From Synergistaceae bacterium (GTDB lineage: Bacteria; Synergistota; Synergistia; Synergistales; Synergistaceae): a DNA stretch of 45,956 bases. Where the stretch lies: contig JAITRO010000242.1 in NCBI GenBank assembly GCA_031288335.1, positions 1 to 45,956 on the forward strand, read 5' to 3'. Position 1 is the stretch's first letter. Each line of letters opens with the position of its first letter. The notes under the pieces are model-generated. The model was not told the origin of the DNA. It saw only the letters and a program-made list of their open reading frames with translations, and did not search any database. Made by a program: the position numbers and the translations under genes. Positions 10,426 to 33,284 of the stretch are shown here, in pieces.

Positions 10426-10978
10426 AAATCCATATCCAAAAAAGAATGGAAACGGATATACAAACGTACCGAGCAAGGCGGGCTTTTAGAGACGAAGCTT
10501 GAGTGCGCCGAGGTAGTGTATGTTACTCAATCGTTATGCACCAGCAAGACTTCCCCGGAATATCGTTTCATAGCGACCCGGGAAGAGTGCAATATTTCAG
10601 ATAAAACGTCGAGAGAAATCGTACAGGATACACTTCAGAGAGAATTGGGATTTGAGATAGAAGAAGCCGCATATGACCTATATGAATGAGCGTGTGTACA
10701 AGGTATTCGGAATCGTCACAAATATGCTGAAGATGGAAGCGAGCGAGTTGGTATTGCTGCATCACAAGCGCTGCGGAAAATCGGAGGAAATACACAGGAT
10801 ACTGAAGGACGATCTGGCAGGAGGTCATGTGGTATCGAAAAAGTTCGGAGCGAATGCGGCATATTGGAACATAGCAGTATTGGCATCGTCGTTGCATAAC
10901 ATCCTGAAAAATTACTTTCTTCCCACAACGTGTCGGAAATCGCGTCCCAAAACATTAAGATTTTTGTGTCGGCAATGA
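10408..10978 (+). pseudogene. Decayed IS1380-family-like transposase, C-terminal fragment with frameshift
   Basis: Two overlapping ORFs (10408-10689, 10673-10978). The second reads VYKVFGIVTNMLKMEASELVLLHHKRCGKSEEIHRILKDDLAGGHVVSKKFGANAAYWNIAVLASSLHNILK, which resembles the IS1380 C-terminus (RCGKSEExHxxxKxDLAGG...FGxNAA). Catalytic N-terminal part absent. Confidence 0.7.
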
Positions 10979-11149
10979 CAGCATTCGCTATTACTTCCTC
11001 GGGACAAATTGAAAGAGACGCGTGGAACATATTTGGCGCAGGCGCAAAGAATTCTTATGATCCAGAGAGGCTTCTTGATGTTATAATAGTAAGCGCGAAC
11101 CTGAAGCAGACGTTGTGGCGGTTATATCCGCATGTAGGGTGATAACCTG

Positions 11150-11319
11150 TGAACACTGTATTTACGGTTATTTTGCGAACCGAGATACCCGCGCTCCTTG
11201 CAGCTTGGCAACTGAAACATATTTTCGTCGTGAAACCTCCCTGTGTTTGTTTAATAAAACAGCAGGTACGCGATATAATGCTGACGGAACCAGTTTTACC
11301 AAGGGTTCGCACTAGCTAC
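11150..11319 (+). promoter_or_regulatory. Candidate CRISPR leader
   Basis: Relatively AT-rich non-coding stretch directly upstream of repeat 1; GCGAACC at 11175-11181 and GGTTCGC at 11304-11310 flank it. Confidence 0.4.
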
Positions 11320-11480
11320 GTCGCGCCCTCACGGGCGCGTGAGTTGAAACTACGAAGGGTGAGCCAGAATACCACGAAAGCAATCGTCGCGCCCTCACGG
11401 GCGCGTGAGTTGAAACCTCGGCGGCGATAGCGGCATACACCGGCGCTATGTCGCGCCCTCACGGGCGCGTGAGTTGAAAC
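11320..11480 (+). CRISPR. 3-repeat, 2-spacer CRISPR array, subtype I-C-like repeat
   Basis: Three identical 31-nt repeats GTCGCGCCCTCACGGGCGCGTGAGTTGAAAC at 11320-11350, 11386-11416 and 11450-11480; spacers of 35 nt (11351-11385) and 33 nt (11417-11449). Confidence 0.93.
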
Positions 11481-11506
11481 TGTGATAGCTAAGGTAGGTT
11501 AGATAT

Positions 11507-12244
11507 ATGCTTAGAGAAGCGTCGATAGTCACTGGCCCGATGCGAAGCGGCACAAGCTGCGTCACTGGGTTGCTGGAGCTTTGCGGTTTCGACCTGGGGC
11601 GCAATATCCGCGTTCTGCGGAACGAGACGCCGATGAACCCGAGGGGACATTTCGAACACGACCTGCTCTTCGCGGTCAATGAACGGCTCTTAATCGAAAT
11701 CGCACCTTTTTGGGGGATATTTGCGCCGCCTCCGCGTGACGAACTGATGGCGCTCGCCGCCAAAAGACAAAATTATTTCCGGATTTTTTTGAAGGAATTC
11801 GACGGCGAACTTTGTAAAGACCCGCTCTTCTGCCTGACTCTGTCAGCGTGGCTGGACGTGTGGCCGGAACTTAGCCGGGCGGTTTTCTGCCTGCGGCATC
11901 CCGCTGAGGTCGCGGTTTCTATGCGCAAGCGTTACGGGACGAATTTTGATGAGGGTTTGCGCATCTGGCGCGAATACAGCCTCAGCTTTTTCGAAAACTC
12001 CGAAAGGATAAATGTATTCATCTTCGACTACAACCGTTTCTGCCGCGAGCCGCTCGACACGTTCGCCGAACTGCTGAACTGGTTCGGGCGTCCCATTGAT
12101 CTGGAGACGCTGCGAAACAACATCGCCTCTTTCTGGAGCGCGCCAGCATCGGCGCTGTCCTCACATTCCGAAGGAGAAACTCTGCCGGACGACGTCCAAA
12201 AACTTTACTTGGACCTGCTGAAATCATCACAAGCGTTTTCTTGA
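11507..12244 (+). CDS. Sulfotransferase-like P-loop protein
   Basis: 245 aa: VTGPMRSGTSCVTGLLELCGFDLG (PAPS-binding-like loop), CKDPLFCLTL, VFCLRHPAEVAVSMRKR. Confidence 0.7.
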   Translation: MLREASIVTGPMRSGTSCVTGLLELCGFDLGRNIRVLRNETPMNPRGHFEHDLLFAVNERLLIEIAPFWGIFAPPPRDELMALAAKRQNYFRIFLKEFDGELCKDPLFCLTLSAWLDVWPELSRAVFCLRHPAEVAVSMRKRYGTNFDEGLRIWREYSLSFFENSERINVFIFDYNRFCREPLDTFAELLNWFGRPIDLETLRNNIASFWSAPASALSSHSEGETLPDDVQKLYLDLLKSSQAFS

Positions 12245-12306
12245 GGCTGAAGTATCCGTGCCGTTCATCCCTGAATGCCTGCCAGCCAGGAACATCAGAA
12301 ATTCCG

Positions 12307-12336
12307 CCGCCCGCACCATGTGCATGATACGGGCGG
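12307..12336. terminator. Bidirectional hairpin CCGCCCG...CGGGCGG between convergent genes
   Basis: 7-bp perfect GC-rich stem followed by GCGTTTTA. Confidence 0.5.
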
Positions 12337-12368
12337 TGGTGCGTTTTATCGGTTGAAACTCATGTGAA

Positions 12369-14165
12369 TCACCCGAGGTTTTTTTCCAGCCGGTCGAGTT
12401 CTTCCTTCAGTTTTTGAGGCAGTTTGTCGCCGAATTTGGCATAGAATTCGCGGATGCCCTTCGCTTCCTCGCGCCACAGTTCGCGATCCACATTCAGCAG
12501 GCCTTTCAGGATGTCGAGCGATATATCGAGGCCTTCGAGGTTTATTTCCTCGGGCCTGGGCAGATATCCGATCGGGCTCTCGACCGCGTCCGTCTCGTCG
12601 AAGGCGCGTTTGATTATCCATTCAAGCACGCGCATGTTCTCGCCATAGCCAGGCCAGATGAAGCTGCCGTTCTCGTCGGTGCGGAACCAGTTCACGTTGA
12701 AAATCTTGGGCGGCTTGGGTATGCGCCTGCCCATTTCGAGCCAGTGGGCGAAATAATCCCCCATGTGATAGCCGCAGAACGGAAGCATGGCCATCGGGTC
12801 GCGGCGGACAACACCGACCGCTCCAGCCGCGGCCGCCGTTGTCTCGCTTGCCATTATCGAACCCACGAACACGCCGTGATCCCAGTCCCTCGACTGATAC
12901 ACCAGAGGGGCGGTCTTCGCCCGGCGACCGCCAAAGACCAGCGCGGATATCGGCACGCCCTCAGGGGATTCGAACTCACTCGAAATGCACGGGCACTGTT
13001 TGGCGGGAGCGGTGAAGCGGCTGTTCGGATGTGCGCCTTTCGAGCCGCCGGCGCAGTCCCAGCGTTCGCCCTTCCAGTTGAGGGCGTTCTTCGGCGGGTT
13101 CTTGTCGAGGCCCTCCCACCAGACCGTGTTGTCGTCGAGATTGTGAACGACGTTCGTGAATATGGTGTTTTTCTGACACGAAAGAAGGGCGTTGGGATTC
13201 GATTTCATGTTCGTCCCGGGGGCGACTCCGAAGAATCCCGACTCGGGATTGACGGCCCACAGACGACCATCCGGTTTTATGCGCAGCCACGCTATATCGT
13301 CGCCGACGCACCAGACCTTGTAACCCTTTTTGCTGTAGACCTCCGGCGGGATCAGCATCGCGAGATTAGTTTTGCCGCACGCCGACGGGAAAGCCGCCGC
13401 CAAATACCGTATCTCCCCCTGCGGGTTTTCTATGCCGAGTATCAGCATGTGTTCGGCCATCCAGCCCTCTTGCCATCCGAGATACGACGCGATGCGGAGG
13501 GCGAAGCACTTTTTGCCCAGCAGGACGTTGCCGCCGTAACCGGAATTTATCGACCATATCGTATTGTCCTCCGGGAACTGGACGATATAGCGATTCTCTT
13601 CGTCGATGCCGGCTTTGGCGTGAAGGCCCTTGGTGAAATCAGCCGGGTTTTCGCTGGCGTCGAGACATTTCAGGACGCGGACACCAATGCGGGTCATTAT
13701 CGCCATGTTTAGCACGACGTATATCGAATCGGTCAGCTCGATGCCGAATTTGGCGAACGGCGACTCGGGAACGCTCATGGAAAACGGAATCACGTACATC
13801 GTGCGGCCCCTAATGGCGCCGTCGTAGAGTTTTCGCAGTTTGGCGTACATCTCGGCGGGATCCGTCCAGTTGTTCGTGGGGCCTGCGTTCTCAGCCTCGC
13901 GCGAACATATGAACGTGCGGTTTTCGACGCGCGCCACGTCGTTCACCGCCGTGCGGTGCAGGAAACATCCGGGCAGTTTTTCCGGGTTCAGTGCGATTAT
14001 TTCGCCCGCGGAGAGGCTTTCCTCGCGCAGCCGGTTCAACTGTTCCTCCGAGCCGTCTATCCAGACGACGGCGTCGGGTTTCGTCATGGCGGCCATTTCG
14101 CCGACCCATTCATTTACCGCTTTGTTGTTGGTCAATGACAATACAAACATCCTTTCGTTTCGCAA
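12369..14165 (-). CDS. pckG: Phosphoenolpyruvate carboxykinase (GTP)
   Basis: 598 aa; AAFPSACGKTNLAML, VGDDIAWL, FGVAPGTNMKSNPNAL, GGRRAKTAPLVYQSRDWDHGVFVGS. Confidence 0.97.
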   Translation of the reverse strand: MRNERMFVLSLTNNKAVNEWVGEMAAMTKPDAVVWIDGSEEQLNRLREESLSAGEIIALNPEKLPGCFLHRTAVNDVARVENRTFICSREAENAGPTNNWTDPAEMYAKLRKLYDGAIRGRTMYVIPFSMSVPESPFAKFGIELTDSIYVVLNMAIMTRIGVRVLKCLDASENPADFTKGLHAKAGIDEENRYIVQFPEDNTIWSINSGYGGNVLLGKKCFALRIASYLGWQEGWMAEHMLILGIENPQGEIRYLAAAFPSACGKTNLAMLIPPEVYSKKGYKVWCVGDDIAWLRIKPDGRLWAVNPESGFFGVAPGTNMKSNPNALLSCQKNTIFTNVVHNLDDNTVWWEGLDKNPPKNALNWKGERWDCAGGSKGAHPNSRFTAPAKQCPCISSEFESPEGVPISALVFGGRRAKTAPLVYQSRDWDHGVFVGSIMASETTAAAAGAVGVVRRDPMAMLPFCGYHMGDYFAHWLEMGRRIPKPPKIFNVNWFRTDENGSFIWPGYGENMRVLEWIIKRAFDETDAVESPIGYLPRPEEINLEGLDISLDILKGLLNVDRELWREEAKGIREFYAKFGDKLPQKLKEELDRLEKNLG

Positions 14166-14493
14166 GACTTATTTATATATTATAACGCCTGAGATAAAAA
14201 ATCGCGATTGCATCGTGGATGTCTGCATGAATTCTTAAACTGAACTGTGCGGAATCAGCCATTCAATATTATAAACGCGAAAATCTTAGGTTTATTCCGC
14301 CGCCGGGCCCGGCAAGGCCAGACCGAAGACGAAATATGAGACATATTGCGAAAAACATTTCGTATAACTTTTTTTGCATAACTCCATCATCTCCTTTGAA
14401 CTGTTCGAGAATGGCAATTCAGTTTACAAATATAAAATTCTTTCGGATATTTAACGTTTATCTATTGACAATTACGGGAATCGATGATAAAAA

Positions 14494-14542
14494 TATCCGC
14501 ATAAATTATTCACGCGTCAAGTGCGGATAATTTATGCGGATA
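14494..14542. repeat. 16-bp perfect inverted repeat TATCCGCATAAATTAT / ATAATTTATGCGGATA with 17-nt loop
   Basis: Arms at 14494-14509 and 14527-14542; preceded by TTGACA and a weak AT-rich -10. Confidence 0.75.
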
Positions 14543-14743
14543 CAGACGGTGTATATCGCCGTCCGGGAACGCGAAGAACCTTAAAACAGCCAACTCATAC
14601 ATCCCTTCATCTTCCTTTCAGTGCCCTTCGGGCGGACGATGACCTGGCAGAAGACAAAAAACGCCAGGCCATTCGTTTTCTATATTTTTTATTATAAAAT
14701 AATGCTGAGATAGCATGAAAATTTTTGAGGAGGAATATCGTCG

Positions 14744-15544
14744 ATGAAAGGAAAAAATATCGCCATGGCCGTATTCAGCGGCACGGGAAATTCCCTGGAA
14801 GCCGCACGGGTTTTGGCCGAGGTTCTCGCGGAATTGGGGCACGACGTCACGCTGCATTCCATGGAACGGAGCGTGAATCATATTTGCCCTGACGGCGGCG
14901 CGCTCGGCATTGTGGCGACCGTCGCCTGTTTTTCGACTTATCCCACCGCCTGGAGATTCATAGATTCGCTGCCTCCCGGCGAAGGGCGCGAGGCCTTTTT
15001 CCTGGCCACAATGGGCGGCTTCGGCGGAGGCATGCAGGGACCCATTGGGCATACGCTTGCCGCTAAAGGGTACAGGCCGGTCGGTTCTCTTATCGTGACA
15101 ATGCCAGGCAATTATGGGAACAAAGTCTTGGACGAGGCGAAAAACAAATCGCTGAAAGATTCGGCTGTCTCGCGTATCAGGAAATACGCCCGCGAACTCG
15201 ATGAAGGTACCGCGAAATGGCCCGGTGGCGTCCCGCTCGTTTCGAATTTTTTTGCCTCGCTGGCTCACGGGCGCAAACCGTGGAATTTATTCCGCAGAAT
15301 GTTTCCTCTGACGGTCGCCGCGGAAAAATGCACAGCGTGCGCGTTGTGCGCAAAACTGTGCCCGGAAAACAACATAGCGCTCGAAGACGGACTGGCCGTT
15401 TTTGGCGATAGATGCGAGTCGTGCCAACGGTGCATCGCTTTTTGTCCGAGCCAAGCCATTTACGTTCCAGGCAAACCGTCGGTTCAGTATCGCGGTACGA
15501 GCCTCGAATCGATCATGTCATTGCGAAATTCCGATCGTTTTTAG
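14744..15544 (+). CDS. EFR1-type flavodoxin/ferredoxin fusion
   Basis: Flavodoxin-like VFSGTGNSLEAARVL and two 4Fe-4S motifs CTACALCAKLCP / CESCQRCIAFCP. Confidence 0.88.
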   Translation: MKGKNIAMAVFSGTGNSLEAARVLAEVLAELGHDVTLHSMERSVNHICPDGGALGIVATVACFSTYPTAWRFIDSLPPGEGREAFFLATMGGFGGGMQGPIGHTLAAKGYRPVGSLIVTMPGNYGNKVLDEAKNKSLKDSAVSRIRKYARELDEGTAKWPGGVPLVSNFFASLAHGRKPWNLFRRMFPLTVAAEKCTACALCAKLCPENNIALEDGLAVFGDRCESCQRCIAFCPSQAIYVPGKPSVQYRGTSLESIMSLRNSDRF

Positions 15545-15725
15545 CCGGCTGTGTATTAGTATTCGCGCATGTGAAGGAAGAACAGTTTTTTGTTAACAGG
15601 CGCAGATTTTGGGAGTTATGATTGATGCTGCGGCGTATCAAAAATTAAATTGCCGCATAGGAACTGCCGGTATCCGACAAAGCGGCAAGGCGTACTTGGG
15701 CATGTGAATCCGGAGGGGTTGAATA

Positions 15726-15995
15726 ATGAAGGGAATCGTAACGGTTTTGGGGAAGGACTCCGTCGGAATAATCGCCAAGATATGTTCGTACATGTCCGAC
15801 AAGAATGTAAACGTGCTAGATATAGCGCAAACGATAATCGACGGTTATTTCAACATGATGATGATTGTCGACTTGAACGGCTCCGCGGCGCCGCTCGCGT
15901 CCATGGCGTCGGAACTGGAAACCCTGGGGCGGGATATCGGAGTCGTCGTCCGCCTCCAGCATGAGGATATCTTCAATGCCATGCACAGGATATAG
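15726..15995 (+). CDS. ACT domain-containing protein (UPF0237-like)
   Basis: 89 aa MKGIVTVLGKDSVGIIAKICSYMSDKNVNVLDIAQTIIDGYFNMMMIVDL; directly upstream of the PFL/UPF0210 gene. Confidence 0.9.
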   Translation: MKGIVTVLGKDSVGIIAKICSYMSDKNVNVLDIAQTIIDGYFNMMMIVDLNGSAAPLASMASELETLGRDIGVVVRLQHEDIFNAMHRI

Positions 15996-15998
15996 CGC

Positions 15999-17357
15999 AT
16001 GATCACCATAAATGAGGCGAACGAGACCATCCGTATGATATCCGAAGCCAATCTCGACGTGCGAACCATAACGATGGGGATAAACCTGCTCGACTGCGCC
16101 GACAGTGATTGCGAAGCCTTCTGCCGGAAAATTTACGACAAGATAACGCGCAGGGCTGAACGCTTGTCCCGCGTGGGGGAGGATATAGCGAAAGAATACG
16201 GCGTGCCGGTGATAAACAAGCGTATTTCCGTGACGCCGATCGCGATAGCCGCTGCCGGCTGCCGTAAATGTGATTACGCGGAGATAGCCCGTGCCCTGGA
16301 CAGGGCGGCGGATGCGGTAGGGGTCAATTTCATCGGCGGTTTCTCCGCTCTGCTCCAAAAGGGGATAACGCCGGAAGACCTCGCACTGCTGGATTCCATA
16401 CCTCCGGCGCTCGCGGGCACAGAGCGGGTGTGTTCGTCGCTGAACCTCGGTTCCACGCGCTCTGGGATAAACGTCGACGCCGTGAACATCTCGGCGCGCG
16501 CGATAAAGGACATCGCCTCCATGACGGGCGACCGCGATTCGGTAGGGTGCGCGAAGTTCGTAGTGTTCTGCAACGCAGTGGAGGACAATCCGTTTATGGC
16601 CGGCGCGTTTCACGGCGTGGGAGAGGGAGAATCTGCCATAAACGTCGGCGTCAGCGGCCCCGGCGTGGTGAAACGCGCCATAGAGGCGGCGCGCGGCGCC
16701 GATTTCGAGACACTCTGCGAGACCGTGAAGCGTACGGCGTTCAAGATAACGCGCGTAGGCCAACTGGTCGCTCAGGAGGCCTCGCGGCGATTGGGAGTTC
16801 CCTTCGGCGTCATTGACCTCTCTCTCGCGCCGACCCCAGCCATAGGCGACAGCATCGCCGAGATACTGCGGGAGATGGGACTGGAGCAGCCAGGCGCGCC
16901 AGGTTCCACAGCGGCGATCGCCATATTGAACGACAACGTGAAAAAGGGCGGAGTCATGGCCAGTTCATATGTAGGAGGTCTGTCCGGCGCGTTCATTCCG
17001 GTGAGCGAGGACCACGGCATGATAGAGGCGGTCAGAGCCGGCGCGCTCACCATGGAAAAACTAGAGGCCATGACCTGCGTTTGCTCGGTTGGCATAGATA
17101 TGGCCGCGATTCCGGGCGATACGCCGGTTGACACGATATCCGGCATAATCCTCGACGAGATGGCGATAGGCATGATCAACGGCAAGACGACAGCCGTGCG
17201 TATAATCCCGGTCGCCGGCAAAAGTGTCGGCGACACTGCGTATTTCGGCGGATTGCTCGGCGAAGCCCCGGTGATGGCCGTGAACGGCTTCGGCTGTTCT
17301 ACGTTCGTGAGAAGGGGAGGACGCATACCGGCCCCGATACACAGCTTCAGAAATTGA
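15999..17357 (+). CDS. PFL family protein (UPF0210/DUF711)
   Basis: 452 aa; [57 protein letters not shown]. Confidence 0.92.
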
Positions 17358-17397
17358 TCCTTTAAATTCCCGATGCGTTTGTCCTGTACCGGCACCG

Positions 17398-18357
17398 CTA
17401 TTTGCGGTTCAGGTGCAGGGCGAAACCCATGAACGTTCTGTTCAGGTACGCGAACTGAATGCGGCCGCCCTTGATCCTGACGGTTTCCTCGACGGGTTTG
17501 ACGCCGAATCCCGAGAGCCATTCGAGGGCCCTCTCGACAGAAATCGTCTCGATGGCTATGTGTCCGTGGTCGCCGCGGCCCGGTTTTTTCATCATCTCAA
17601 ACGCACGGCCTACGAACGCGGAATTATCGCCGTCCTTCAGCGGCATTCCCAGCAGTGCGGACAGAAATTTCGCGTTTTCGAGCACATCCGATCCGTCGGG
17701 GTTGATTCCTATGTGCAGCAGCGAAAAGCCCAGCGACAGGATGCGGGCTTCGCGGCAGAGACGCTCCACGCCTGCGTAGTCCCCGGACTCAATCAGCCCG
17801 GCGGGTACCATCCAGCTTCCGCCGACGGCGTGGACGTTCGGGAGAGCCAGATACTCCGTCACGTTTTTCTCGTTTATTCCTCCGGTTGGGATGAAGGAGA
17901 CCTTGTCTCCGTAAGGTCCGGCGAAAGCCTTCAACATGCCGGTTCCCCCGGCGTTTTCGGCGGGGAAGAATTTCAGCACTTTGAGCCCGTATTCGAGGGC
18001 CTGTTCTATCTGCGACGGCGTGGTGACGCCCGGTGTCACGGGCACGCCCTTTTTGACGCAGTATTCCACCACTTTAGGATTGAACCCGGGCGACACGATG
18101 TAGCGCGCGCCGGCTGCGACGGCCGTGTCGACCTGACCCGGAGTGAGGACGGTGCCCGCGCCGACTGTGAGTTCCGGCAGTTCCTTCGACAGGATCCTGA
18201 TCGATTCTTTGGCGGCGTCGGTGCGGAACGTCACCTCCGCGACGGGCAGATTGCCGGCCAAAAGCGCTTTACCCAGAGGCAGAGCCCGGTCGGGTGATTC
18301 GAGCTTGATAACCGGTATGAGACCTATGCTGCCCAGTTTTTTCAGCACATCTTCCAT
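17398..18357 (-). CDS. eda: 2-keto-4-hydroxyglutarate / 2-keto-3-deoxy-6-phosphogluconate aldolase with C-terminal VOC-like domain
   Basis: N-terminal KDPG aldolase (VGAGTVLTPGQVDTAVAAGARYIVSPG, VLKFFPAENAGGTGMLKAFAGPY) followed by a ~110 aa VOC-like extension (LLHIGINPDGSDVLENAKFLSALLG...HGHIAIETISVERALEWL). Confidence 0.88.
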   Translation of the reverse strand: MEDVLKKLGSIGLIPVIKLESPDRALPLGKALLAGNLPVAEVTFRTDAAKESIRILSKELPELTVGAGTVLTPGQVDTAVAAGARYIVSPGFNPKVVEYCVKKGVPVTPGVTTPSQIEQALEYGLKVLKFFPAENAGGTGMLKAFAGPYGDKVSFIPTGGINEKNVTEYLALPNVHAVGGSWMVPAGLIESGDYAGVERLCREARILSLGFSLLHIGINPDGSDVLENAKFLSALLGMPLKDGDNSAFVGRAFEMMKKPGRGDHGHIAIETISVERALEWLSGFGVKPVEETVRIKGGRIQFAYLNRTFMGFALHLNRK

Positions 18358-23437: not shown

Positions 23438-25948
23438 ATGGCTTTGAGCAAGGAAATAATAACCAGGATAATTTCCAACACGAAAAACGTTCGCCTGATG
23501 TTTATCATCATGTCATTCACAGTGCTGTGTCTGTCCGTATATACCAACGTGGTCTTAAGCCAATATGTGAATTCGGAGGCGCGTAACATAGTGGAGAGAC
23601 TGAAAGCAACCGCCGTGGCCGCGACTTCTCTCGTGAGCGGCGCGGAATTGGATTCGTACCGTGACGCGGAAGATACAAAGCTCCCGAGCTATCAAAAGTT
23701 GAAGAGAAAGCTGCGGGTTTTCGCGAAAAATATGAATGTCACATATGTTTACTATATGCGCATACTTGACGGTAAAATTCAGTATATCATCGACAACGAT
23801 TTCGACGAGAAAACAAGGGTGGGGCTGGACACTTCGCTCGTCGACATCTCCATAGAACACTCCGTCGCGGGCGCGTTTGCGGGACAAATCACCTGTGACG
23901 ATGTCGAAGGGGATTCTGAGGGCTGGGAAGGGATGATATCGGCTTACGCTCCGGTTTACAGCGCGGGCGGCGTAGTCACGTCGGCAGTCGGGATCGATAT
24001 CAATGACGCTCAGATAATTGCCTCCAGCCAAAAAATGATAAATATCGCGGGCCTGCAGGTTTTAGCGATTGGCCTGGTGATCGCTAGCGGCCTCGTCTGT
24101 CTTTGGGGATATCAACTCGCGGCAAATTCGGCTTCCGAGGCAAACAGGAGCAAATCCGACTTTCTGGCCCGCATGAGCCACGAGATACGCACCCCGATGA
24201 ACGCGATAATCGGCATGAGCGAGCTTGCGGTCCGAGAGTACGGAAAACCGGAGGGGCTCGATTTTATCGCCGAAATACGGCAGGCCGGGACAAATCTGCT
24301 TTCCATAATAAACGACATCCTGGATTTTTCCAAAATCGAGGCGGGGAGTTTGCAGATCAGCGAGGCACTCTATAATACGGCTTCCTTGTTGAACGATGTG
24401 ACGGCGATTATCCAGGTGCGCATAAAGGGAAAACCCATCCGGTTCATTTCCGAGATAGACTCGGCTCTGCCGACGGCTTTGGAAGGCGATCAGATCAGGG
24501 TCAGGCAGATATTGCTCAACCTCCTGTCCAACGCCGTTAAATATACCAGGGAGGGGTTTGTAAAGTTCATCGTTTCCGGCGAAAGGACCGGTGACGGCAG
24601 GATAAACCTGACGTTTAAGGTGGCCGACAGCGGGATCGGCATAAAAAATGAGGATATTGCCAAATTGTTCGGGAACTTCGTGCGGGTGGATCAGAAGCGC
24701 AACATGAGCATCGAGGGAAGCGGCCTGGGGCTCATCATCACCCGCAGCCTCTGCAACGCGATGGGCGGGGACATCACGGTCGAGAGCGAGTACGGCAAGG
24801 GATCCGTTTTCAGCGCGACCATCACCCAGCTCATCTCTGACGACCAGCCGCTCGGCGACATCGACAAAAAGCTCGATGTCGCGCCGATGTCCGCGAACGT
24901 CCGTTTCACGACCCCGAACGCCCGAGTGCTCATAATCGACGACATTGCCACGAACCTAATGGTGATAAAGGGACTGCTGGCACCGTATGAGATGAACATA
25001 TCGACATGTCTGGACGCAAGGGAGGCCATCGACCTGATCAAGAAAGAATCGTTCGACATCGTTTTCATGGATCACATGATGCCCGGCATGGATGGAATAG
25101 AAGCGACCCACGCTATCCGCGCGCTGGACGGCAAATATTTTAAAGAAGTCCCGATAATCGCGCTCACTGCCAGCGCGATATCCGGTATGCGCGATATGTT
25201 TCTGCAAAACGGCTTCAGCGATTATCTGGCGAAACCCGTGGAGATACCTAAGCTGAACGGAATAATAGAGCGATGGATCCCTAAGGAAAAAAGGGTGAAG
25301 CGCAAAAACGGCGCTGACACCTCAGGCACGCGCGCCGCCGGCGCTGACGCTTGCGGCGCGGCGTCCGAAATCGGCCTTGATATCGAAGGTCTCGACGTAT
25401 CGCAAGGGATAATCATGACGGGCGGAACCCTCAAAGACTACATCAGCGTGCTCGAACTCTATTGCAGCGATGTCGACAAGCGTCTGGAAGTCTTGCGCGG
25501 GACGCCCGATGAAAATGGGCTCAAGTCCTTCATCACGCAGGTGCACTCGATCAAGAGCGCCTCCGCGAGCATCGGAGCGGCCGCGTTGTCGGAGGCGGCG
25601 GCGCTTTTGGAGGCGGCCGGCGGCAGGAGTGATATCGAATATATTCGCGAAAATCTGGGTTTTTTCTACCAAAACCTTATCGCGACGACCGGACGCATCA
25701 AAGCCGCCCTTTCCGAAAAAAGCGCAAACACGTCCAAGCGGCAAGTTTCGGACCACAGAGAATCCTTGCAATTACTGAAAAACGCGCTGTCCGAGGAGAA
25801 CATAGGCGGCATAGACAAGATATTGGCCGACCTGAACGAGGAAGAACTCGACGCGGCCACAAGAGATTCCCTGTCGAAAATTTCCGATCTGACGCTTGTG
25901 GGAGAGTTCAAAGAAGCATGCGCGATAGCAGAAAAGCTGGTTCAATGA
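23438..25948 (+). CDS. Membrane hybrid sensor histidine kinase with receiver and HPt
   Basis: TM helices flank an extracytoplasmic Cache-like region; LARMSHEIRTPMNAIIGMSEL; receiver FMDHMMPGMDGIEA; HPt-like TQVHSIKSASASIGAAALSEAAALLEAAGG. Confidence 0.93.
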   Translation: MALSKEIITRIISNTKNVRLMFIIMSFTVLCLSVYTNVVLSQYVNSEARNIVERLKATAVAATSLVSGAELDSYRDAEDTKLPSYQKLKRKLRVFAKNMNVTYVYYMRILDGKIQYIIDNDFDEKTRVGLDTSLVDISIEHSVAGAFAGQITCDDVEGDSEGWEGMISAYAPVYSAGGVVTSAVGIDINDAQIIASSQKMINIAGLQVLAIGLVIASGLVCLWGYQLAANSASEANRSKSDFLARMSHEIRTPMNAIIGMSELAVREYGKPEGLDFIAEIRQAGTNLLSIINDILDFSKIEAGSLQISEALYNTASLLNDVTAIIQVRIKGKPIRFISEIDSALPTALEGDQIRVRQILLNLLSNAVKYTREGFVKFIVSGERTGDGRINLTFKVADSGIGIKNEDIAKLFGNFVRVDQKRNMSIEGSGLGLIITRSLCNAMGGDITVESEYGKGSVFSATITQLISDDQPLGDIDKKLDVAPMSANVRFTTPNARVLIIDDIATNLMVIKGLLAPYEMNISTCLDAREAIDLIKKESFDIVFMDHMMPGMDGIEATHAIRALDGKYFKEVPIIALTASAISGMRDMFLQNGFSDYLAKPVEIPKLNGIIERWIPKEKRVKRKNGADTSGTRAAGADACGAASEIGLDIEGLDVSQGIIMTGGTLKDYISVLELYCSDVDKRLEVLRGTPDENGLKSFITQVHSIKSASASIGAAALSEAAALLEAAGGRSDIEYIRENLGFFYQNLIATTGRIKAALSEKSANTSKRQVSDHRESLQLLKNALSEENIGGIDKILADLNEEELDAATRDSLSKISDLTLVGEFKEACAIAEKLVQ

Positions 25949-25976
25949 TCGTTTCAGCCATAAAAACGAGACGGGG

Positions 25977-26579
25977 ATGAACGCCGTGCAATTCAGAGCT
26001 TTTGAACCGGGCATAGAGGTGAAGGGACAAACGGTGTACTCGATCATCGACGGACTGGGTTACTTTACCAACATATCCAGGCGATATCTGAGTCAGGTGG
26101 GCATTGGGACTGTGAAGGACAAAAAACTTGTGCTGGATAAAGAAGGATGGTATTCGCAGGAGGCGTGGCTCAAGGCGTTTGAAAATATCGCGAGACAGAT
26201 AGGCAGCAGAGTGTTATTCAACATAGGCATGTCTATTCCGCGCAACGCCGAGTTTCCGTCTTTGACGACGGATGTGAAGAGCGCCATATATGCTGTGGAT
26301 GTGGCCTACCATCTCAATCATCGCAAAAACGGCAAACGGATGTTCGACATACAGACCAACGTCATGATGGAAGGCATCGGGCATTACGGATGCGACCCGA
26401 TACCGGGCAAAAACGAAATAATAAGCGTCTGCAACAATCCCTGTCCATGCTCCTTCAACAGGGGAATCCTGACCGCGATGGCGCGGAAGTTCGAACCGTC
26501 AGCCAGGATCGTCCATGACAACTCCAAAGAATGTCTCAAGTATGGGGCTGATTCGTGCACTTTCCATATTTTATGGTGA
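25977..26579 (+). CDS. V4R (4-vinyl reductase)-like small-molecule-binding protein
   Basis: 200 aa; C-terminus NNPCPCSFNRGILTAMARKFEPSARIVHDNSKECLKYGADSCTFHILW resembles the V4R C-terminal pattern (C..GD..C.F.I). Confidence 0.5.
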   Translation: MNAVQFRAFEPGIEVKGQTVYSIIDGLGYFTNISRRYLSQVGIGTVKDKKLVLDKEGWYSQEAWLKAFENIARQIGSRVLFNIGMSIPRNAEFPSLTTDVKSAIYAVDVAYHLNHRKNGKRMFDIQTNVMMEGIGHYGCDPIPGKNEIISVCNNPCPCSFNRGILTAMARKFEPSARIVHDNSKECLKYGADSCTFHILW

Positions 26580-26582
26580 CCT

Positions 26583-28481
26583 GTGCCGGTTTCGAAGAAT
26601 TCTGAGATGGATATAGACATAGCGGATTATATCGACGAAGTTGTGCTTTCATTGGTAACAAAAGCGATAAACCACGTCGCGTCGATAGCGGAACTTCTTT
26701 CCGACATCAATACTATAAGGGCTATGGCCGAGGAACTGAACGCGTTTATCAAAAACAGCGAGGCAGAGAGCAGCGTAGCGGCAAAATCCGGCGAGATGGC
26801 ACAAACCGCCGGGGTCGTCTTTGAACGCGTCCGCAGCCTCGAACATGAAGTCGCGCGGATGAGCATGGACATAAACGAAATCATGGGGAGCGTCGAAGAT
26901 TTGAACGCCGCAAGGCTTAAATCCGACAGAGAAAACAGGAGCAAAACACTGTTTTTGGCCCGCATGAGTCACGAACTGCGGACGCCGATGAACGCGATAA
27001 TCGGAATGGGCGAACTTGCCGAGAGGGAATACGGGCGTCCTGAATGCCTGGGATATATCCGAGACATCAAGCAGGCGGGAACGAACCTGCTCTCGATCAT
27101 CAACGACATACTCGATTTCTCCAGAATAGAGTCCGACAATTTTCAGATAATCCAGTCTTCCTACGACACAGTTTCGCTCTTCCACGATGTGATCGCCATC
27201 ATACGGGTCAGGCTCGCGGAGAGCCCCGTCCGTTTTATGACGAGCATAGATCCCGGTATTCCGTCCGTAATGGTCGGAGATGTTGGGCGCATACGCCAGA
27301 TATTGCTGAATTTGCTCTCCAACGCGGTGAAATATACGGAGGATGGTTTTATCAAATTCAGCGCGTCATCTGAGAAAGACGGCGAGACGGCAATACTGCG
27401 TTTTGTGGTGGAGGACAGCGGGATCGGGATAAAACCGAAGGATTTGGACCGTTTGTTCGGCGATTTCGAGCGATTTGACATGAATCACAACACCGGCATC
27501 GAGGGAGTTGGACTTGGGCTGTCCATAGCGCGCAGCCTTTGCCGCGTGATGGGCGGCGATATCTCGGTGACGAGCGAGTACGGGAAGGGGTCTGTTTTCA
27601 TAGCTACCCTGCGTCAGTCATGCGGCGACTGCACGCCCATCGGAAATATCGACGAAAAAATGTCCGTCAGGACGCGGCAAGTGGGGGTCAAGTTTACCGC
27701 GCCAGGTTTTCGTGTGCTTGTGGTCGATGATGTCGAGGTAAATCTGAAAATCGCCAAGGGATTGCTCTCCCCTTTCAAGATGGAAATAGATACCTGTTCA
27801 AGTGGGAGCAAGGCGCTTTCGATGGTACAGGAAAACGAGTACGATCTGGTGTTTATGGATCACATGATGCCAGGTATGGATGGGATAGAGGCAGCTTCTC
27901 TCATTCGTATGCTCGAGGGCAAACGTTTTCATAATCTCCCGATTGTGGCGCTCACTGCAAATGCCATTTCAGGAATGAGGGAGATGTTTTTGGAGAACGG
28001 TTTCAACGATTTTCTCACGAAACCCATAGAGATCCGCCGGCTGTACGAATTAATGGAAAGGTGGGTTCCCAGGGAAAAGAGGGCGAAATTCGAATGCACG
28101 CGCCCCAGCGATTCACCCTCCGAAACCATCCTGAATATCGAAGGCCTGGACACGTCCCGCGGACTTGTCATGACGGGCGGGACGATGGAGGACTACATGA
28201 CGGTGCTCGATCTCTATTGTCAAGATGCTGAGAGCAGGATGAAAACCTTGCGTGATGTTCCGGACAAAGATGATCTAACGCTTTTCACAACTCAGGTGCA
28301 CGCGTTGAAGAGCGCGTCGGCGAGCATCGGCGCGGCCGCGCTGTCGGAGGCCGCGGCGATGCTGGAGACGGCTGGCGGCAGAGGTGACATGGAATACATC
28401 CGCGAAAATCTGTTCTTTTTCCGCGAAAACCTTGCGGTGACAATCGAACATATCAAAACCGCTCTGTCGCTAAAACCCTGA
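26583..28481 (+). CDS. Soluble hybrid histidine kinase with receiver and HPt
   Basis: GTG start 4 nt after the upstream stop; no TM segment; LARMSHELRTPMNAIIGMGEL; receiver FMDHMMPGMDGIEAAS; HPt-like TQVHALKSASASIGAAALSEAAAMLETAGG. Confidence 0.92.
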   Translation: MPVSKNSEMDIDIADYIDEVVLSLVTKAINHVASIAELLSDINTIRAMAEELNAFIKNSEAESSVAAKSGEMAQTAGVVFERVRSLEHEVARMSMDINEIMGSVEDLNAARLKSDRENRSKTLFLARMSHELRTPMNAIIGMGELAEREYGRPECLGYIRDIKQAGTNLLSIINDILDFSRIESDNFQIIQSSYDTVSLFHDVIAIIRVRLAESPVRFMTSIDPGIPSVMVGDVGRIRQILLNLLSNAVKYTEDGFIKFSASSEKDGETAILRFVVEDSGIGIKPKDLDRLFGDFERFDMNHNTGIEGVGLGLSIARSLCRVMGGDISVTSEYGKGSVFIATLRQSCGDCTPIGNIDEKMSVRTRQVGVKFTAPGFRVLVVDDVEVNLKIAKGLLSPFKMEIDTCSSGSKALSMVQENEYDLVFMDHMMPGMDGIEAASLIRMLEGKRFHNLPIVALTANAISGMREMFLENGFNDFLTKPIEIRRLYELMERWVPREKRAKFECTRPSDSPSETILNIEGLDTSRGLVMTGGTMEDYMTVLDLYCQDAESRMKTLRDVPDKDDLTLFTTQVHALKSASASIGAAALSEAAAMLETAGGRGDMEYIRENLFFFRENLAVTIEHIKTALSLKP

Positions 28482-28586: not shown

Positions 28587-28615
28587 TTGACAGGAACGTG
28601 TGCGCGCTGTAATAT
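28587..28615 (+). promoter_or_regulatory. Consensus sigma70-type promoter TTGACA-17 nt-TAATAT
   Basis: -35 at 28587-28592, -10 at 28610-28615, spacer exactly 17 nt. Confidence 0.8.
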
Positions 28616-28665
28616 ATTCCTAAATTACCCATTATTTAAGTAGGTAATAAAGAGGAGGAAGGCAA

Positions 28666-28758
28666 ATGTCACAGACTTTTCTATTCGCGCATAGATTGGG
28701 ATTATCGTCTTGTTGTTGCGAATGCGGCGGCTCTTCGCCTTTGGGCATCGGCGGTTAG
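28666..28758 (+). CDS. 30-aa Cys-run leader peptide (alternatively small Cys-rich precursor peptide)
   Basis: ATG after AGGAGGAAGG; MSQTFLFAHRLGLSSCCCECGGSSPLGIGG. Cys codons TGT TGT TGC (28711-28719) and TGC (28723-28725); stop TAG 28756-28758; below the ORF-track length cutoff. Confidence 0.75.
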   Translation: MSQTFLFAHRLGLSSCCCECGGSSPLGIGG

Positions 28759-28779
28759 GTTGTTTGTCCATTCCGCGGG

Positions 28780-28810
28780 GAGCCCTCTTTTTAGCGGGGG
28801 GCTCTTTTTT
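28780..28810 (+). terminator. Intrinsic-terminator-like hairpin (candidate attenuator) between leader ORF and radical SAM gene
   Basis: GAGCCC (28780-28785) pairs with GGGCTC (28799-28804), followed by TTTTTT (28805-28810). Confidence 0.75.
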
Positions 28811-28895
28811 ATTTCCAGCGGTTCTTATTGAACCTCATTGCCCCAAGAGCGAAGATTTCTTGGGCGAATATTAAAAATAGCGGGAGGAAGGTTGT

Positions 28896-30174: not shown

Positions 30175-31188
30175 ATGAGAAAACATATAGCGAAGGCCGG
30201 AAAAATTCACGTTCTTGCGGCAATATTATTGCTTGCGGTCATATTTTGTGGCGCACTTGATTCGCGGACATATGCGGCGGAGGCAAAAAAGTACGACGGC
30301 CTCAAGATTCGCTGGGCCACCATGCCAAGCCAAACTCAATCGGTCATTGCGGAGGAATTGGGGTATTTCAAGGAAGAGTTTGAATCGGATGGTATTTTCG
30401 TAGAACTGCGGATGTTTCCGTCCGGTCCTCCGGCGATAGAGGCGTTTGCCGCGGGGGAATTGGACTTCGCTCAAGTTGGAAACCAACCGACTGTCCAGGC
30501 TATCGCAAACGGAATAAATATCAAAGTTATCGGGGCGTATCAGTCGTCCGACGGCTCGGACCTCGGCCTCATCGCAAGAAACGACAGCGGCATCAAAACG
30601 CTCGAAGATTTGCGGGGTAAAAAACTTGGTTATACCATCGGAACCGAGGCGCATATGATGGCTCTTAAATTCCTGAAATCCGTAAATCTGAACGGTGAAA
30701 CCGTGCAGCTTGTTAACTTACAGATAGGAGATATAAGCACGTCGATCGAATCCGGCAACATTGACGCGGCTGTTACATGGGAACCATGGCTTTCGACGAT
30801 CCTCGGCAACGGCACGACGCATCTCGTGAGAGACGCGGTTGGCTTCAACAGAGCGTCCAGCGTCATCATCGGTAAAACGGAATTTTTGGACAAATATCCT
30901 GAAATAGTCGTCAGGTTACTGAAGGTGTTGGATCGTTCCGTCAAATGGAGTGACGAACATAAAGCCGAGAGCTGCAAAATTCTTTCGAAGAGGAATGGCG
31001 TGGCCGAAAGTGCCTATGAGGCGGCGTTCAGGACCCAAAATCTGGAGTTGTTCCTTGACGATACGCGCATCAATAATCTTGCCGACATCGAAGAGTTTCT
31101 TTTCGAACAGGGAACCATACGAAAGCATTTTAATCTGAGGGATTATATAGACACGAGTTTTCTGGAAAAAGCGGGCATCAATAAATAA
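30175..31188 (+). CDS. ABC transporter substrate-binding protein, SsuA/TauA/NMT1-like
   Basis: N-terminal signal sequence; IRWATMPSQTQSVIAEELGYFKEEF...AFAAGELDFAQVGNQPTVQAIANGINIKVIGAY...AAVTWEPWLS. Confidence 0.9.
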   Translation: MRKHIAKAGKIHVLAAILLLAVIFCGALDSRTYAAEAKKYDGLKIRWATMPSQTQSVIAEELGYFKEEFESDGIFVELRMFPSGPPAIEAFAAGELDFAQVGNQPTVQAIANGINIKVIGAYQSSDGSDLGLIARNDSGIKTLEDLRGKKLGYTIGTEAHMMALKFLKSVNLNGETVQLVNLQIGDISTSIESGNIDAAVTWEPWLSTILGNGTTHLVRDAVGFNRASSVIIGKTEFLDKYPEIVVRLLKVLDRSVKWSDEHKAESCKILSKRNGVAESAYEAAFRTQNLELFLDDTRINNLADIEEFLFEQGTIRKHFNLRDYIDTSFLEKAGINK

Positions 31189-31229: not shown

Positions 31230-31727
31230 GTGAATGTGATCTTAACGCTCAGCACTGACTCACGGACGGCTCTTGCTGATCCGGATACGGTGAAGGTACT
31301 GGCGGGTATAGACGCGAACGGTTTTCCGCATGTTGCCTTCAAGGATTCGCTTCGTATCAGGCCTGACGGATATCTTGAATACGACGAAATAATTGAGAGT
31401 TCGGATATGAACAAGGTTTTCGTCAACGCTGTCTGGTTCGGCCGCACCGTCTCCGTATTGCTCTTGACAGGCGCTCGGCGCAGTTTTCTGATCAAGGGCA
31501 GCGTGTACAGGGCAATCATTGCGGGATGGGAATTTAAAGAGCGTTACTTAACCGCGCGCAAGCGTCTTGGAGACGTGGATCTTTCAACGTCGTGGGTAAT
31601 AGAACCGACATTTGAGCGAGAAGACACCCTCGAAAAAAGAAGGATCGAGGAAGAAGAGAGACATCCCCTCCTTCGCCACGTGGATAGGCTGCTGCACACG
31701 CGCAATACGGAGAACCATGCGGAATAG
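31230..31727 (+). CDS. Pyridoxamine 5'-phosphate oxidase-like (split-barrel flavin-binding) protein
   Basis: VKVLAGIDANGFPHVAFKDSLRIRPDGYLEYDEIIESSDMNKVFVNAVWFGRTVSVLLLTGARRSFLIKGSVYRAI matches the general PNPOx-like pattern; GTG start after GAGGGG. Confidence 0.55.
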   Translation: MNVILTLSTDSRTALADPDTVKVLAGIDANGFPHVAFKDSLRIRPDGYLEYDEIIESSDMNKVFVNAVWFGRTVSVLLLTGARRSFLIKGSVYRAIIAGWEFKERYLTARKRLGDVDLSTSWVIEPTFEREDTLEKRRIEEEERHPLLRHVDRLLHTRNTENHAE

Positions 31728-32499
31728 TCTTCTGAAACGGCGTGCGCGAAAATTGTTTCTGGGATGCCTGGCGCCGTTTGTAATATTGGCTTCCTGGGAA
31801 TATCTTGGACGCAGGGGAATCATAAACCTGTCGATTCTTCCGCGTCCTTCTGTAATCATGGATTGCCTTGCCGAGATGATCGCAAACGGGCAGCTCAAGA
31901 AACATCTGCTGGTGAGCGCTTTCCGGGTCGTCAAAGGTTTCCTGATCGGGGGAGGCGTTGGATTGGTATTGGGAGTTCTGTGCGGATTGTCAAATACGTG
32001 GAATGATGTTTTGAGTTCTTTGATCGGAATCCTGCGGCCTATCCCAATGATCGCCTGGATTCCCATTCTCATCCTTCTGTTAGGCATCGACGAGGGCTCT
32101 AAAATCGCGCTTATCGCAATCGGCACTTTCTGGCCCGTGCTCCTCAATACGAGCAGGGGAATACGCAATACCGATAAAAAATTGCTGGAGGTAGGGATTA
32201 TATTGGAAAAGAGCAGATCTCAGATGCTGACCAAAGTCATTCTGCCGGCAGCTTTCCCTTTCATTTTTACTGGAATACGCCTTGGCGTAAGCAGCGCTTG
32301 GTCCTGCGTTGTGACGGCCGAGGTCATTGCCGCGGCTGTCGGTATCGGTTATGTCATCATGTATGCGCGCGAGCTTCTGCAGCCTGACGTTTTATTGATT
32401 GGAGTTTTGACTATTGGCGTCGTCGGGCTGCTTCTGGACGTCGTTCTTCTGCAAATCGAAAAACGGGCGCTTCGTTGGAACGAAGCCGACGAGCGTTAA
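31717..32499 (+). CDS. ABC transporter permease, SsuC/TauC-like
   Basis: ATG 31717 overlaps the upstream stop; hydrophobic protein with EEGSKIALIAIGTFWPVLLNT-like permease segment (GIDEGSKIALIAIGTFWPVLLNTSRGI) and ILPAAFPFIFTGIRLGVSSAWSCVVTAE. Confidence 0.92.
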   Translation: MRNSLLKRRARKLFLGCLAPFVILASWEYLGRRGIINLSILPRPSVIMDCLAEMIANGQLKKHLLVSAFRVVKGFLIGGGVGLVLGVLCGLSNTWNDVLSSLIGILRPIPMIAWIPILILLLGIDEGSKIALIAIGTFWPVLLNTSRGIRNTDKKLLEVGIILEKSRSQMLTKVILPAAFPFIFTGIRLGVSSAWSCVVTAEVIAAAVGIGYVIMYARELLQPDVLLIGVLTIGVVGLLLDVVLLQIEKRALRWNEADER

Positions 32500-32504
32500 A
32501 GGTA

Positions 32505-33284
32505 ATGGGAATGAATAAAAGCGTGGATATACTTGGGGTGTCAAAGATATTTTCGTTGGATTCAGGGGACTTGCCCGTACTTGGCAAAAGTGATTTCCAT
32601 ATTGAAAGCGGAGAATTTGTAAGCATCGTAGGGAGGAGCGGCTGCGGAAAAAGCACCTTGCTCAGGATTATCTCTGGTCTCGAGATCGCGACGACCGGCG
32701 AGGTACAAATAGGCGGACGCAGGGTTGAACGCCCCAGCGTGCTGACAGGGCTTATCTTTCAGGAACCCAGGTTATTCCCGTGGCTTACAGTGGAGAAGAA
32801 CATAGAGTTTGGGCTGCATCGGAAGATCGAAAAAACTCAACGCAGGGAAGTCGTCGAACAACATATTGCGCTTGTTGGTTTGAGCGGTTTCGAGGAGGCG
32901 TTCCCCCGGCAGCTCTCCGGAGGGATGCAGCAGCGAGTCAGCATTGCCCGCACGCTCATCAATCAGCCCAACGTGCTCTTGTTGGACGAACCGTTTGGAG
33001 CATTGGACGCCCTCACCAGGATTCACATGCAGAACGAGATACTGCAAATCTGGGAGGCCGAGGGATCCACCATGATCCTGGTGACGCACGACGTGGACGA
33101 AGCAATTTTCCTGAGCGACCGCATTATAGTTCTGTCCGACCGCCCCGGAGAGATTAAAAAGGTAATTTCCGTGGATACATCGCGTCCCAGAGACCGCAGC
33201 GGGCCGCGTTTTATGGAAATTCGCCGTGAGATTTATACTGAGTTTTTCGAGGATTCGTCGTTGTCGATTGAATATTATGTCTAG
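32505..33284 (+). CDS. ABC transporter ATP-binding protein, SsuB/TauB-like
   Basis: Walker [10 protein letters not shown], signature [13 protein letters not shown], Walker [13 protein letters not shown]. Confidence 0.95.

Follow-up and report, generated by a model that had tools for sequence, protein, structure and literature searches.

The 45,956-nucleotide stretch of Synergistaceae DNA analysed here (the window) carries, as far as can be judged from its letters, a short ORF of translatable type with its own Shine-Dalgarno motif between a promoter and an operon, and the run of Cys codons in this ORF raises the question of whether transcription of the operon is attenuated according to the supply of charged tRNA-Cys. 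Taken together, the results make it very probable that the locus is a ribosome-mediated transcription attenuator sensing charged tRNA-Cys, which would respond to starvation, and that it is one member of a chassis family found throughout Synergistota.

The cysteine-codon leader and its operon

All parts of the leader lie on the forward strand. A sigma-70-type promoter is found at 28587–28615 by sequence inspection and promoter scan (TTGACA at 28587–28592, TAATAT at 28610–28615, 17-nt spacer). The 5' end of the predicted transcript holds a 23-bp dyad, TTACCCATTATTTAAGTAGGTAA (28625–28647), followed by the Shine-Dalgarno motif AGGAGGA (28653–28659) and by the leader ORF MSQTFLFAHRLGLSSCCCECGGSSPLGIGG (28666–28758), whose 30 codons (28666–28755) run from an ATG at 28666 to a TAG stop at 28756–28758. 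This ORF is of the CCCxC type, with the candidate sensor codons TGT TGT TGC GAA TGC (Cys-Cys-Cys-Glu-Cys) at 28711–28725 and a Gly-Gly C-terminus. An intrinsic terminator recovered by terminator scan at 28778–28810 (arms 28778–28788 and 28796–28806, T6 at 28805–28810) precedes the first gene of the operon. Promoter, Shine-Dalgarno, 30-codon Cys ORF, terminator and downstream operon all lie where the original prediction had placed them, and its description of a GAGCCC core beginning 21 nt past the leader stop, with T6 after the hairpin, is accurate.

The first structural gene, with a TTG start, encodes a radical SAM protein (variant_rSAM NF045502, 28896–30134) and is followed on the same strand by genes for an ABC transporter substrate-binding protein of the SsuA family (TIGR01728, above cut-off, 30175–31188), an unassigned protein (31230–31727), an ABC permease whose best match, SsuC, falls below the equivalog cut-off (31612–32499, start uncertain), and an ABC ATPase of the sulfonate/taurine/nitrate group (32475–33284, start uncertain). 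An attenuator responding to cysteine predicts that this radical SAM/SsuA-type system serves cysteine supply, the transporter substrate being putative and the link to cysteine indirect. Directly 5' of the operon, two similar hybrid histidine-kinase-like genes flank a gene for a 200-residue protein (23438–28481). Close relatives of the radical SAM protein occur in metagenome-assembled genomes (MAGs) labelled Desulfovibrio, Spirochaetaceae, Campylobacteraceae and Helicobacteraceae (L187–L208), and some of them adjoin transporter genes or an ORF that resembles, by eye, the one at 31230–31727 and in Campylobacteraceae lies 5' of the radical SAM gene. Such relatives, together with the shared neighbours, suggest that a sulfur-compound system, itself uncharacterised, has spread horizontally.

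Peptide searches recovered two extra copies of the leader in the genome of the window, both on contig C154, and one in the congener G003; an RNA model added two further Cys leaders in the congeners G010 and G001. Five other matches of the first peptide search (L004 and L006–L009) were not leader-like and were set aside as chance. The six Cys leader peptides are SQTFLFAHRLGLSSCCCECGGSSPLGIGG, SQIFPFSRESELSSCCCRCSRSSPSDTGG, PQNFLYTYESKLSSCCCKRSRSSSSDVGG, SQIFSFAYKLESRSCCCRGCCRSSHSDIGG, SQTFPSVHESGSRFCCCCCLGCVRSSRSDIGG and SEAFLCANELESRSCCCSRYSHSPSSDVGD. In their alignment, the promoter-proximal stretch is almost invariant (TTGACA and the 17-nt spacer in six of six, with TAATAT or a close variant of it as second hexamer), the terminator is conserved and the CCC run is fixed, the other residues mostly drifting. 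CCC is thus invariant in all six, with both terminator and antiterminator preserved in five. The runs of the window leader and of the five leaders closest to it consist of Cys alone (CCC to CCCCC), and the start is the sole Met codon in any of them. The sixth leader (L028, G001 contig C278) has an intact CCC run and no terminator at the usual place, and is possibly a decaying copy whose terminator is missing or replaced. One of the other Cys leaders precedes a gene for an SsuA-family binding protein (L003) and two precede another substrate-binding-like protein (L025 and L026), for which no NCBIfam model passed at 1e-30. On contig C154, two adjacent operons (10886–18142), each with its own Cys leader, encode in one case an SsuA-type ABC transporter and a short-chain dehydrogenase-like protein and in the other two further binding proteins and a second, distant radical SAM protein.

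The 23-bp dyad is special to the Cys leaders. Its three sites in the window genome each lie at a Cys leader, and it is kept in congeners, the G003 copy showing one compensated T/A change. The dyad may serve as an operator for some sulfur regulator or form a stabilising hairpin at the 5' end. Rrf2/CymR was considered as its possible owner; no Rrf2 protein was found in the window genome, which is only 78% complete, or in G003, and Rrf2 proteins do occur in other congeners.

The original prediction asked that Cys codons and terminator persist in orthologous operons as the remaining residues drift. This holds within the genus. In two other genera (G168 and G173), operons orthologous to that of the radical SAM gene keep the attenuator chassis, with one Cys codon and one or two Met codons (NKMACMES and NTMKCTES), so that the signal there may be cysteine/methionine. 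The attenuator is absent at two close radical SAM orthologues within the phylum (G005 and G022), and no Cys leader was found at the orthologues examined outside Synergistota. The pure Cys run is therefore a speciality of the genus of the window.

A family of leaders across Synergistota

An RNA model built from the Cys leaders also matched leaders with other codon runs. A second model, made from 22 Cys, Ile and Met leaders with no base pairs included, found matches in 137 of 188 Synergistota genomes at E ≤ 1 and in about 100 at E ≤ 1e-3 (table count), and recovered classes outside its training set, namely Leu/Val/Ile (best 8.3e-10), Thr/Met (2.4e-9) and Phe (2.8e-7) leaders. Among 516 genomes from outside the phylum (19 + 250 + 247), the same model gave partial matches and no convincing leader: the best E-value was 0.010 in the 19 outside genomes and 1.5e-3, for a partial match, in 250 genomes from the phylum of a Lachnospiraceae record. 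The 247 genomes drawn from the phylum of a Desulfovibrio record gave the strongest outside match (E = 4.4e-6), which falls within a coding gene and was rejected. Leader, terminator and first gene were extracted for about 130 matches; nearly all leaders have a start codon with a Shine-Dalgarno motif and a terminator about 20–30 nt past the stop.

The codon run fits the pathway of the first gene across the family, as judged from curated protein families. Met runs (MMMC, MSMMMCM) precede genes for MetQ/NlpA binding proteins and MetN, as well as for O-acetylhomoserine sulfhydrylase (MetY) and cystathionine synthase/lyase; Ile runs precede threonine ammonia-lyase-like enzymes (threonine dehydratase) and the gamma subunit of a 2-oxoacid:acceptor oxidoreductase; the small subunit of acetolactate synthase (IlvH) follows Leu/Val/Ile runs; the Thr/Met run AMTMT precedes aspartate kinase; mixed Cys/Met leaders precede serine O-acetyltransferase; and an FFFF run precedes a phenylacetate-CoA ligase-like protein. 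In the window, the Cys run stands before a sulfonate-type transporter of putative substrate. Of the evidence at hand, this family-wide match argues most strongly for the Cys run as the sensor and, with the invariance of CCC in the genus, it lends support to the attenuation by Cys codons originally proposed from the sequence.

The Met class is, furthermore, independently tied to methionine supply by SAM-I riboswitches located directly upstream of Met-run leaders at four loci, with MetQ downstream in two (L133 and L134) and O-acetylhomoserine sulfhydrylase-like genes in the other two (L142 and L175). At L133 and L142, riboswitch and leader each have, by eye, their own terminator. No SAM riboswitch (RF00162) was found in the window. 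At another locus (L129, 1572–1693), a molybdenum/tungsten cofactor riboswitch (RF01055, above gathering score) lies 3' of a threonine-dehydratase-like gene with an Ile leader.

The mixed leaders bear on a first alternative, in which the leader would sense sulfur amino acids broadly, through both Cys and Met charging or through slow translation in general. The radical SAM leaders of G168 and G173 and the serine acetyltransferase leaders, which mix Cys and Met, speak in its favour; the pure Cys runs of the window leader and of the five leaders nearest to it make this an improbable account of the locus, for which sensing of charged tRNA-Cys is preferred.

Competing hairpins and the proposed switch

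An antiterminator is present between the leader ORF and the terminator. The original prediction had noted a weak 5-bp GGCTC/GAGCC pairing; the pairing exists and is in fact of 10 continuous pairs, two of them G-U, between GGCTCTTCGC (region 2, 28729–28738) and GCGGGGAGCC (region 3, 28775–28784). The consensus fold of the four best Cys leaders (RNAalifold) is this antiterminator and not the terminator. Region 3 overlaps the terminator 5' arm (28778–28788), and the two structures are mutually exclusive, both requiring region 3, as indicated by the consensus fold and by statistics on 126 distinct leaders of the family. The loop that joins regions 2 and 3 contains the stop codon, and folding gives a small hairpin there (CGGC-GGTTAG-GTTG, 28748–28763) with the stop codon in its own loop; this hairpin is a family-wide tendency (score 12.2 observed, 8.1 shuffled) and is weak in the window.

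In the 126 leaders, the mean antiterminator energy is −24.0 kcal/mol with the leader's own arm, −18.6 kcal/mol with the arms of others and −15.8 kcal/mol after shuffling, and the own-partner mean was reached by none of 2000 permutations. The terminator 5' arm covaries both with the antiterminator arm and with the terminator 3' arm (region 4). Regions 2-3-4 read C-G-C at helix position 3 in 42 leaders, G-C-G in 28, A-U-G in 23 and A-U-A in 10, with others besides; this position is paired in 94% of the leaders with their own partner, in 61% with a random partner (maximum 67% in 30 draws) and in 85% with a mismatched partner from the same class (highest 89%), the same search procedure having been applied to true and mismatched combinations. 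RNAalifold returned no pairs for the mixed 22-leader alignment, because MAFFT misaligned classes with a shifted region 2, and anchored counting was used instead. Given this pairing, the three copies in one genome and the three in congeners, the layout of the window leader is beyond chance.

In most leaders, 27 or 25 nt separate the start of region 2 from the stop. Region 2 is translated in two different frames, one shared by the Cys and Cys/Met leaders with most of the Met and Leu/Val ones, the other used by the Ile, Thr and Phe leaders, so that selection acts on the RNA and not on the peptide. This is relevant to a second alternative, in which the Cys-rich product of the short ORF would itself be functional, for instance as a metal-binding peptide or as a precursor that the neighbouring radical SAM protein matures. 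We regard it as very unlikely, even with the radical SAM gene adjacent and an ORF rich in Cys and ending in Gly-Gly: the peptides drift outside the Cys run and the C-terminal segment, this segment overlaps the antiterminator strand that other classes read in other frames, a terminator stands between ORF and operon, homologous leaders precede genes without any radical SAM enzyme, and the ORF has no peptide-family match.

A metabolite- or protein-binding RNA controlling the terminator, with the ORF incidental, would account for the conserved RNA core and for the conserved 5' dyad of the Cys leaders. The in-frame codon run is, however, the sole part that varies with the downstream pathway, and neither an Rfam family nor a T-box covariance model matches the element in the window or in the related loci scanned, so that we give this explanation very little weight. 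That the leader is decayed or constitutive, with a terminator and no regulation, can draw on the terminator-less congener copy and is highly improbable with all parts intact at three loci of one genome and with pairing and promoter conserved.

The attenuator sensing charged tRNA-Cys would operate as follows; promoter use, translation, stalling and the direction of the response are what we infer in this model. RNA polymerase would start just past 28615 and a ribosome would begin the leader ORF. When Cys-tRNA is scarce, the ribosome would wait on the Cys run and, since region 2 begins about 10 nt past the third Cys codon, would leave region 2 ahead of it free to pair with region 3 once the latter is transcribed. 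With region 3 held, no terminator would form and transcription would enter the radical SAM/sulfonate-type ABC operon. When cysteine is plentiful, the ribosome would cross region 2 as far as the stop codon in the inner loop of the antiterminator and prevent its formation, whereupon region 3 would pair with region 4 and transcription would end at 28810.

Folding agrees with this scheme in part. When a ribosome footprint is placed over the Cys codons, the nascent RNA forms the region 2:3 helix in five of the five Cys leaders tested. Once region 4 is included, however, several leaders have the terminator as their minimum-energy state even under the stalled ribosome, and a 30-nt mask at the stop codon is by itself insufficient to open region 2:3. 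Equilibrium folding thus does not decide the switch, and the decision would have to rest on kinetics and steric effects, as it does in known attenuators. Folding of the Cys leaders revealed no clear anti-antiterminator or protector (1:2) stem; a short weak GUUGC/GCGGC stem is present and is compatible with region 2:3.

At the scale of the phylum, we consider it likely that Synergistota possess an ancient, homologous and modular attenuator, in which a single RNA chassis, made up of the antiterminator strand, a stop codon within the antiterminator loop and the terminator, has been inherited, copied across operons and retargeted to Cys, Met, Ile, Leu/Val, Thr or Phe by exchange of the codon run alone. 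With the same likelihood, the SAM riboswitches stacked before the attenuator would provide two-input control in some operons.

Relation to known attenuators

The classical enterobacterial attenuators (trp, his, leu, ilv, pheA, thr) share with the window a leader ORF with a codon run, a competing terminator and antiterminator, and sensor codons that match the operon. The Synergistota family differs in that one homologous chassis serves six amino-acid groups with the codon run alone exchanged, in the lack of a clear 1:2 protector stem and in the position of the stop codon inside the antiterminator loop. T-box riboswitches are likewise one RNA architecture retargeted to many amino acids through a codon-sized specifier; whereas a T-box binds the tRNA directly, here a translating ribosome would read the codon run.

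Cys codons have been linked to attenuation elsewhere. The polycysteine leader ORFs of mycobacteria (Canestrari et al. 2020, cited through PMC13236596; predicted in PMC1262725) resemble the window leader in having a short-ORF Cys run before sulfur-metabolism genes; they are leaderless, and a conserved terminator hairpin was not found with them (PMC1262725), unlike the window, with its 5' UTR, Shine-Dalgarno and terminator/antiterminator. Actinobacterial Cys-codon attenuators were predicted, a conserved terminator hairpin not being found (PMC1262725). Upstream of cysS in Rhodobacterales, the uORFC-8-2 motif is predicted to attenuate transcription by Cys-tRNA and, like the window, combines tandem Cys codons with a terminator; it controls cysteinyl-tRNA synthetase in alphaproteobacteria and has its Cys codons within the first of two stems (PMC8632094), whereas the first gene in the window is that of a radical SAM protein and not cysS.

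A 2010 survey stated that leader-peptide attenuators were known from Proteobacteria and Actinobacteria alone, and added Firmicutes (PMC2965389). For Synergistota, the main text of a screen in Thermovirga lienii does not report the family (PMC6429828), and histidine control has been assigned to HisR (PMC9413887). Searches of the freely accessible main texts of the literature found nothing else on attenuation in this phylum.

Ribosome-mediated attenuation as a kind is already known; a homologous, codon-swappable set of attenuators for six amino-acid groups in Synergistota appears to be new. Leader-peptide attenuators are usually viewed as short-lived and independently arising, without sequence kinship between operons. 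With one recognisable RNA core for six amino-acid groups in most Synergistota genera, the copying and retargeting of an attenuator become traceable, and the codon run alone allows one to predict how many transporters and enzymes that are otherwise uncharacterised would be regulated. The family suggests a codon-programmable regulatory part and, if the proposed reading is true, this modular attenuator would be the ribosome-read counterpart of the T-box.
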